43,358 nucleotides of DNA. Origin: Treponema sp. Its GTDB lineage: Bacteria; Spirochaetota; Spirochaetia; Treponematales; Breznakiellaceae. The notes beneath the pieces are model-generated. The model was not told the origin of the DNA and made no database searches. It saw nothing but the letters and a program-made list of their open reading frames with translations. Within the stretch, counting starts at the first letter, position 1, and each line of letters begins with the position of its first letter. The translations under genes were made by a program, and so were the position numbers. Location: positions 1-43,358 of the forward strand of contig JAISCR010000205.1 in assembly GCA_031265435.1 (NCBI GenBank), in the 5' to 3' direction. Positions 27,323 through 29,109 of this stretch are shown in pieces.

Positions 27323-27472
27323 TCTTTCTCCTTTTCCCTCCGAAACGTCTAAATTGCTGATAAATCAAGTCAGGAAAGGGAAAAAAGGGCCTGAAATGAC
27401 GCCTTGAAAGACTGGCCGGTACGGACGGAAGGGGGTATCCGTACGAAAATTTTCCGAATTTTTGTGTTTTTC

Positions 27473-27501
27473 TTGACGAAATTAAAAAACGGATGTATAT
27501 T
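27473..27501 (+). promoter_or_regulatory. Putative sigma70-type promoter for the lipoprotein/radical SAM operon
   Basis: TTGACG (27473-27478), 17-nt spacer, TATATT (27496-27501). Confidence 0.55.
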
Positions 27502-27606
27502 AATCTTTATGAATGGTGTATGGTACCAGTGCTTTTTCCGACAGCGAACTATCAGCGGAGGTAAGCGAGACAATACCGTAAAAACTGTTGACGGCAAGGG
27601 GGGCAG

Positions 27607-27684
27607 ATGCGGTTAAAATTGAAAATTATGGTTTTCTTTTTTGGCCTGGTGATATGCGGATGTAAAATGAAGGAAATTTCATGA
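27607..27684 (+). CDS. Short ORF (25 aa) resembling a lipoprotein signal peptide
   Basis: MRLKLKIMVFFFGLVICGCKMKEIS*; preceded by G-rich aaggggggcag; its TGA overlaps the next ATG (ATGA). Confidence 0.4.
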   Translation: MRLKLKIMVFFFGLVICGCKMKEIS

Positions 27685-28064
27685 AACTGACGAAAGAAAC
27701 CGGCCGTAAGATTTTAAGAAAAATTTACACCGGATTAGGATTAACTACTGTAGCGCTGGTATTCCAGGCATGTTATGGAACCCCTATAGGACTGGACGTT
27801 CTGGTACGGGGCACTGTAAAATCGAAAACAACCAATGACCCGATTGAGGGAATAAAAATCTCGGTTAAGGATATGTATCAATATGAGCTAACGGATAACA
27901 CCGGTAAATTTCAGTTCTATGTCCCGCAGGATGAAATTTGCGTCATACAATTGGAGGACATTGACGGCACGGAAAACGGTTCATATTTATCAACGGAAAT
28001 TTCTGTCGATTTGTCAAAAGATAAAATGGACCTGGGAGATGTATTCTTGGATGATGCCGAATAA
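27681..28064 (+). CDS. Putative lipoprotein with carboxypeptidase-regulatory-like fold, rSAM-associated
   Basis: Signal peptide with lipobox-like VFQAC; VRGTVKSKTTNDPIEGIKISVKDMYQYELTDNTGKFQFYVP; followed by a radical SAM gene. Confidence 0.8.
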   Translation: MKLTKETGRKILRKIYTGLGLTTVALVFQACYGTPIGLDVLVRGTVKSKTTNDPIEGIKISVKDMYQYELTDNTGKFQFYVPQDEICVIQLEDIDGTENGSYLSTEISVDLSKDKMDLGDVFLDDAE

Positions 28065-29109
28065 AGTTTTACTCTATCTGCATCGTCTATTTAAACAGAA
28101 TGAAACAAAATTACATGAATTAAATTATCTGTTCTGGGAATGTACCCAACGGTGTAATTTGGCGTGTTTGCATTGCGGATCGGATTGTACCTCCGATTCC
28201 ACGATACCTGATATGCCCTTTAACGATTTTTTGCAGGCTATACTGCCCATAAAGAAAATGTATAAGGAGAATGTCATAACAATAGCAATAACGGGCGGAG
28301 AACCGCTGTTGCGGAAAGATCTGGTTTTGTGCGGCAAAACTTTACGGGAACACGGTTTTCGCTGGGGAATTGTTACCAATGGGTATGGTTATACCTTTGA
28401 TATTCACGCCAGACTGCTCGCGGCGGGGATGAGGACGGTAACCCTAAGTCTTGACGGACTTGAAAACAGTCATAATTGGCTCAGGTCAAACAAAAAAAGT
28501 TTTGAAAATGCGGTTAAGGCATTGGATTTGATTGTATCTTCAAAAGGCTTGACCTATGATGTTGTTACGTGCGTTAATCGAAAAAATATTAGTGAGCTTT
28601 CCGATCTTAAAGAATTTTTGATTTCAAAAAAGGTAAAAGCGTGGCGGCTGTTTACCATAGCGCCTATTGGAAGGGCTGTAAACAATAATGATATGATATT
28701 AACATCCAATGAATTAAAACAGTTGATGGATTTTATTGTCCTCTCTCGTATAAAAAGTGACATTGATGTTAAATTTAGCTGTGAGGCATATGTTGGAAAA
28801 TATGAAAAACGAGTACGGGATTCCTATTTTTTTTGTCATGCGGGAATAAATATAGCTTCAGTACTGATAGACGGATCAATATCGGCGTGTCCAAATATCA
28901 ACCGAAATTTTGTGCAAGGGAATATTTACACTGACAATTTTCCGGAAGTATGGAATAATCGGTTTGAGATTATGAGAAATCGTAATTGGATGAAGGCAGG
29001 AATTTGTACAGATTGTACAGATTATAAAAATTGCAATGGCGGCGCCATGCATCTATGGAATGAAAAAAGAGATACGATAATGACTTGTATAAATAAAACG
29101 ATTAAATAA
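28054..29109 (+). CDS. Radical SAM/SPASM protein (rSAM/lipoprotein system type)
   Basis: CNLACLHC (CxxxCxxC), ITGGEPLLRKD; Cys-rich C-terminus CHAG...ACPN...CTDCTDYKNCNGG. Start at MPNKVLLYL overlaps the lipoprotein stop. Confidence 0.9.
   Translation: MPNKVLLYLHRLFKQNETKLHELNYLFWECTQRCNLACLHCGSDCTSDSTIPDMPFNDFLQAILPIKKMYKENVITIAITGGEPLLRKDLVLCGKTLREHGFRWGIVTNGYGYTFDIHARLLAAGMRTVTLSLDGLENSHNWLRSNKKSFENAVKALDLIVSSKGLTYDVVTCVNRKNISELSDLKEFLISKKVKAWRLFTIAPIGRAVNNNDMILTSNELKQLMDFIVLSRIKSDIDVKFSCEAYVGKYEKRVRDSYFFCHAGINIASVLIDGSISACPNINRNFVQGNIYTDNFPEVWNNRFEIMRNRNWMKAGICTDCTDYKNCNGGAMHLWNEKRDTIMTCINKTIK

Follow-up and report, generated by a model that had tools for sequence, protein, structure and literature searches.

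Among the described systems closest to the gene pair analyzed here is PlpA/PlpX/PlpY (TIGR04103; IPR026482), in which a SPASM radical SAM enzyme is encoded beside a ribosomal X-Tyr-Gly substrate whose residue X is variable. The splicease PlpXY acts on MYG and LYG without needing the leader, and its minimal tag comprises ten residues, either PIRPLYGLPI or a GYG form (PMC10533398). A cluster of this type (L133 4666-6487) is found on a plasmid of Nostoc sp. C057; it comprises an enzyme belonging to TIGR04103 proper (853 bits, cut-off 725), a Nif11 precursor ending in GGRGSIALYGLPPELF with the core end ALYGLPPELF, and a 71-aa PlpY-like ORF, with TOMM-type genes close by. The GDL-motif/DUF1843 system (TIGR03913) has enzymes ~48% identical to the PlpX type and placed on the same tree branch, and a PYG-x-A or PYG-A-G motif occurs in a small substrate from Azospirillum and in another from Aureibacter. 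DUF1843/GDL-motif peptides encoded beside TIGR03913-type enzymes (L135 3153-3866, L139 1787-2242) include some with PYGPA or PYGAG near the N-terminus and others with YAA or YMA in place of YG, so that these peptides may be related substrates. The NCBIfam rSAM/lipoprotein system, TIGR04133/TIGR04134, was known beforehand as a named family pair, listed (June 2026) without an assigned function (hypoth_equivalog), and a literature search for TIGR04133 or TIGR04134 found no paper mentioning either.

Gene content and family membership of the cassette

The window, i.e., the entire 43,358-nt stretch of DNA from Treponema sp., a gut spirochaete, analyzed here, encodes on its forward strand a lipoprotein of 127 aa (27681..28064) and a radical SAM/SPASM enzyme of 352 aa (28051..29109), the latter starting at an ATG at 28051 or 28054. 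The two ORFs overlap by 14 nt. In the NCBIfam profile search, the enzyme scored 459.8 bits against TIGR04133 (cut-off 425, E 5.1e-138), and the lipoprotein barely passed TIGR04134 in the protein search (40.0 bits, cut-off 39.8), with a score of 38.2 bits in the six-frame search. The window pair thus belongs to the TIGR04133/TIGR04134 family, with which it shares the curated cut-offs, the operon order and the overlap seen in relatives, and from which it differs in no essential respect. In addition, Pfam searches identified Radical_SAM (PF04055; 62.9 bits, cut-off 29.5) and SPASM (PF13186; 32.8 bits, cut-off 21.5) domains in the enzyme.

The lipoprotein consists of an extended basic signal peptide, a lipobox (FQAC31), the residues Y32-G33-T34-P35, and a TTR/CarboxypepD-like beta-sandwich. 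Its AlphaFold model (pLDDT 87) contains a helix (residues 5-30) followed by a predicted sandwich of seven strands (DSSP; residues 39-123, 27795..28049, + strand), which Foldseek matched to transthyretin-like domains, while CarboxypepD_reg-like Pfam domains matched below their cut-offs. The original prediction had described a lipoprotein with a beta-sandwich-like domain, translationally overlapped by a radical SAM enzyme with a Cys-rich SPASM-like C-terminus, and had named TIGR04133/TIGR04134 as the matching family pair; these points all agree with the above results, TIGR04134 only just. Its start at 27607, however, belongs to a different ORF of 25 aa, whose ATG lies there, and the lipoprotein begins at 27681.

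Co-occurrence of the two genes across genomes, proposed at that stage as a check, was confirmed. Among 294 genomes of the same order, TIGR04133 was present in 49 (E <= 1e-40) and a TIGR04134 match in 34, of which 30 also contained TIGR04133 (Fisher p = 7e-24). The co-occurrence is imperfect, as no TIGR04134 match was obtained in 19 of the genomes that encode the enzyme, in part because the TIGR04134 model misses partners that are short or divergent. A partner candidate adjoins the enzyme in 125 of 134 cases, and in more after inspection, and the pairing with a motif-bearing protein recurs at ~130 loci in two phyla, plasmid copies included. Some loci (L033 1189-3938, L090 and L091) contain tandem rSAM genes, each with its own motif-bearing partner. 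At another locus (L049 1869-3076, genome G192), the TIGR04133 gene is split over two frames behind an intact CYGTP lipoprotein, owing to either a frameshift or an assembly error.

The X-Tyr-Gly-x-Pro site of the partner lipoproteins

Across 130 loci of Spirochaetota and Bacteroidota, essentially all partners keep an X-Tyr-Gly-x-Pro motif just past the lipid anchor. In the window lipoprotein, this motif corresponds to C31-Y32-G33-T34-P35 (27771..27785, + strand), a proposed splice or modification site located in the low-confidence linker between the signal helix and the sandwich of the AlphaFold model. YG follows the signal peptide in 116 of 121 unique partner lipoproteins, for which automatic picking favored the YG-bearing ORF where several lay nearby, a lipobox-only selection giving the same picture; 103 of the 116 contain YG-x(1-3)-P. 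Residue X is the lipobox Cys itself in ~70% of partners, with counts of C 81, E 12, M 10, A 4, K 4, V 2, and L, Q and H 1 each (n = 116). In an alignment of 49 divergent sequences (29% mean column identity), whose members were required to contain YG somewhere but at any position, only four columns were invariant, namely Y32, G33 and two glycines of the fold. Along the enzyme tree, X switched 10-13 times while YG stayed constant.

The motif is also kept where other features of the lipoprotein vary. Its distance from the Cys reaches some 40 residues, some partners contain two copies (L025, L080, L123, L127), and YG is retained where the lipobox Cys is lost, as in HAAYGMREP (L058/L059) and AQYGAP (L124). 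Partners of 60-78 aa that lack the domain (L008, L019, L075, L077, L128) still carry the motif and conserve little beyond it. The beta-sandwich is disfavored as the modified part because these short partners have no such domain. For comparison, of the 53 further lipobox ORFs at the same loci, 12 had YG within 40 aa, a figure that fell to 3 of 44 (~7%) after removal of nine partner-type lipoproteins. A TTR-lipoprotein of genome G256 (86% complete), in which a search for TIGR04133 found none, has no YG after the lipobox (a single case).

The only clear partner without YG (L042 1800-3485, genome G065) contains LYMPP/LYAPP; Tyr and Pro are retained in its sequence CGLYMPPAALYAPPPGDY but Gly is missing, and this partner could reveal whether Gly is required. 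Other apparent exceptions disappeared on individual reading: at L017 and L049 the wrong ORF had been picked, the partner of L120 (EYGTP) lies at a greater distance upstream, and YG partners occur at other places within loci L119, L129, L130 and L138. At L061, no lipoprotein was found at the locus. When the partners are compared with one another, their conservation lies mainly in X-Tyr-Gly-x-Pro rather than in the beta-sandwich, and YG is very probably the target site of the enzyme. The original suggestion that the lipoprotein may itself be the substrate thereby gains strong support from the invariant XYG motif.

The enzyme and the proposed reaction

The putative SAM [4Fe-4S] cluster ligands of the enzyme form a CX3CX2C motif (C35, C39, C42; 28153..28176, + strand) that is invariant in 67 sequences. 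The SPASM-type auxiliary cluster region (28780..29088, + strand) comprises C244, C262, C280, C319, C322, C328 and C346, as assigned from column counts in 130 proteins. At the second Cys position of the CX3C motif in SPASM, all 130 enzymes of the family have G, A, P or S instead of the usual Cys, a loss not seen in the PlpX- and GDL-type enzymes compared, and an extra Cys, C244, is kept in 129 of the 130 but absent from those PlpX and GDL enzymes. In anSME, the counterpart of the lost Cys binds auxiliary cluster I; by this analogy, the cluster may possibly have an open or otherwise ligated site in the family. The best fold matches of the enzyme model (pLDDT 93.5) were SkfB, SuiB, anSME, PqqE and ChlB, placing the model nearest to peptide-modifying SPASM enzymes. 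An RRE fused to the N-terminus was rejected, as the ~25 residues preceding the radical SAM core in the model are too few.

The enzyme falls outside TIGR04103, against which it scored 131.3 bits (cut-off 725), close to its scores against NirJ2 (132 bits) and AhbD (115 bits), and a PDB sequence search returned generic relatives only. The HMM scores alone therefore do not single out TIGR04103, and the splicease argument is carried by the motif. Phylogenetic analysis placed TIGR04133 as sister to the PlpX/GDL branch (SH-aLRT 91), before MftC, NirJ, PqqE and TIGR04053, in a quick tree whose outgroup sample was small (13 sequences) and had long branches. Likewise, the Nostoc TIGR04103 enzyme was the best-scoring plasmid match outside TIGR04133 (143 bits, 27% identity). 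This kinship with PlpX and GDL enzymes agrees with the splicease reading but does not prove it.

The YGxP context is shared with the PlpA/PlpX/PlpY system, LYGLP in the PlpA2 tag and ALYGLPP in Nostoc corresponding to YGTP, YGMPP and YGPPP in the family. In contrast to that system, the substrate in the family is anchored in the membrane as a lipoprotein, includes a folded domain and has no Nif11/NHLP leader, X is mostly the lipobox Cys, and the enzyme has an altered SPASM Cys pattern. The GDL-motif/DUF1843 proteins differ in that they are small, lack a lipobox and in some cases lack YG, and their enzymes are ~25-28% identical to that of the window. No PlpY-like ORF lies beside the window cassette, and the Nostoc PlpY-like sequence, a short query used without a positive control, gave no match in the genome at E <= 1.

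Taken as a whole, the observations are best explained, with fair probability, by a horizontally mobile two-gene modification unit in which the TIGR04133 enzyme is a maturase dedicated to its lipoprotein substrate. The enzyme would rewrite the lipoprotein backbone at the Tyr-Gly site, and, by analogy with the spliceases, excision of tyramine, leaving an alpha-keto-beta-amino acid, appears somewhat more probable than another reaction. The modified lipoprotein would then be lipidated and displayed, its beta-sandwich being exposed but not essential. The X position of the window lipoprotein is occupied by Cys31, to which the lipid would also be attached, and the ketoamide would therefore sit directly on the lipid anchor; in relatives X is Glu, Met, Ala, Lys or another residue further along the chain. 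To our knowledge, no splicing at a lipobox Cys as X has been reported. The support at hand consists of the pairing, the co-occurrence, the invariance of the motif irrespective of domain and lipobox, and its identity to the proven splicease motif.

Alternatively, the enzyme could modify XYG by another radical reaction, such as a cross-link of Tyr to Pro, Cys or another residue, C-beta oxidation, epimerization, or cleavage without rejoining. SPASM radical SAM enzymes perform many reactions on Tyr and Gly, and the range of fold matches from SkfB to ChlB, the rewiring of the SPASM ligands relative to PlpX-type enzymes and the undetected PlpY (in a search that had no positive control) all fit such a reaction. 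However, the agreement with an established splice motif is specific, the tag having YGLP and the family YGxP, and a cross-link would need its partner residue to be kept, yet X varies freely; a different reaction is thus possible but rather unlikely.

Two further readings place the action of the enzyme away from the motif. Lipoprotein sorting signals lie next to the lipidated Cys, and XYGxP, directly at that Cys in 81 of 116 partners, could be an anchor-proximal sorting, export or docking signal, with the enzyme modifying another part of the lipoprotein or another protein. A signal of this kind is hard to reconcile with a motif that wanders far along the chain, is sometimes doubled and persists when the Cys is lost, that is seldom found in other lipoproteins of the same loci (3/44), and that is nearly all the short partners conserve, which makes this reading improbable. 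It is more doubtful still that the substrate of the enzyme is a small molecule or porphyrin, as for its AhbD and NirJ relatives, with the lipoprotein as carrier or sensor: the NirJ2 and AhbD scores equal or approach that for TIGR04103, but no heme or cofactor genes adjoin the cassette, and the strict pairing with a motif-bearing protein spans two phyla and plasmids.

The invariant XYG site and the splicease proposal with its predicted mass change (loss of C8H9NO, about -135.07 Da) are new here, although part of the present finding may already be covered by Scott et al. 2022 (Chem). For a family without assigned function that is common in Bacteroidota and in gut Treponema, the motif suggests a specific and testable chemistry. 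If the splicease reading is correct, radical protein splicing would extend beyond secreted natural products and include ordinary lipoproteins of the cell surface, common gut bacteria would display a non-ribosomal backbone unit there, and ketoamide protein labeling would gain enzymes whose natural X residues are, e.g., Cys, Glu and Lys. Spliceotides have been reported as protease inhibitors (PMC10373908, PMC11117315). It may be speculated that the E, K, M and A variants, with X as the P1 residue, serve as surface protease traps, and that the Cys-type product serves in covalent capture or resistance to cleavage.

Insertion site and horizontal spread

The operon has a GC content of 38.3%, compared with 52.0% (SD 3.7) in the rest of the window, where every stretch of 1,429 nt has at least 42.5%. 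Within the genus, TIGR04133 is present in one of five genomes. In a tree of 124 enzymes, the window enzyme sits within mixed Spirochaetota/Bacteroidota sets, and six phylum-label changes were counted, five of them forced by starred branches. The AT-rich composition noted originally is thus evident, and the recent acquisition proposed from it is supported by composition, patchiness and at least five forced phylum switches. A scan of GTDB genomes gave 80 loci among the matches listed, mostly in Bacteroidota, and at least 574 relatives are encoded in this phylum among the candidate stretches, including gut Parabacteroides and Phocaeicola. Enzymes of termite-gut Bacteroidales, e.g., Candidatus Symbiothrix dinenymphae, show 70% identity to the window enzyme (among the matches listed), and the enzyme is also encoded on plasmids, namely in Treponema saccharophilum, Parabacteroides distasonis and Phocaeicola massiliensis. 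On these composition and tree data, the cassette is AT-rich, patchy and, by phylogenetic criteria, horizontally spread.

A sister genome (G083), 95% identical around nrdR, lacks TIGR04133 at E <= 1e-40 and has at the place of the cassette an array of FN3 lipoproteins (L151 4554-6324; MKKVLSMAVLICGFGLLISGC...). Upstream of the cassette, the stretch 27417-27522 shows 83% identity to L151 4554-4659, its counterpart being conserved upstream of an FN3 lipoprotein gene in the sister genome. This stretch contains a promoter-like TTGACG-17-TATATT (27473..27501, + strand) found in a consensus scan in which the number of such sites was not above chance. It is followed by 52 nt that apparently remain from the 3' end of a gene for an FN3 lipoprotein (27532..27583, + strand; 92% identity to L151 5761-5812). 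The 25-aa ORF with a lipobox (27607..27684, + strand; MRLKLKIMVFFFGLVICGCKMKEIS*) resembles MKKVLSMAVLICSFGLLISGCKTEVS at the syntenic place in the sister genome and is probably what is left of an FN3 lipoprotein gene that once resided here. It was rejected as the start of the lipoprotein, as a second substrate or as any part of the cassette, as it has no counterpart beside the enzyme in relatives and resembles in place and sequence the start of the sister-genome FN3 lipoprotein. Given these remnants, the conserved upstream stretch and the FN3 array of the sister genome, the cassette seems to have replaced resident lipoprotein genes. On plasmid pTS1 of Treponema saccharophilum (L137 2809-3453), an Mpi-type serine DNA invertase gene lies directly beside the lipoprotein/rSAM pair, a possible sign of phase variation or mobility.
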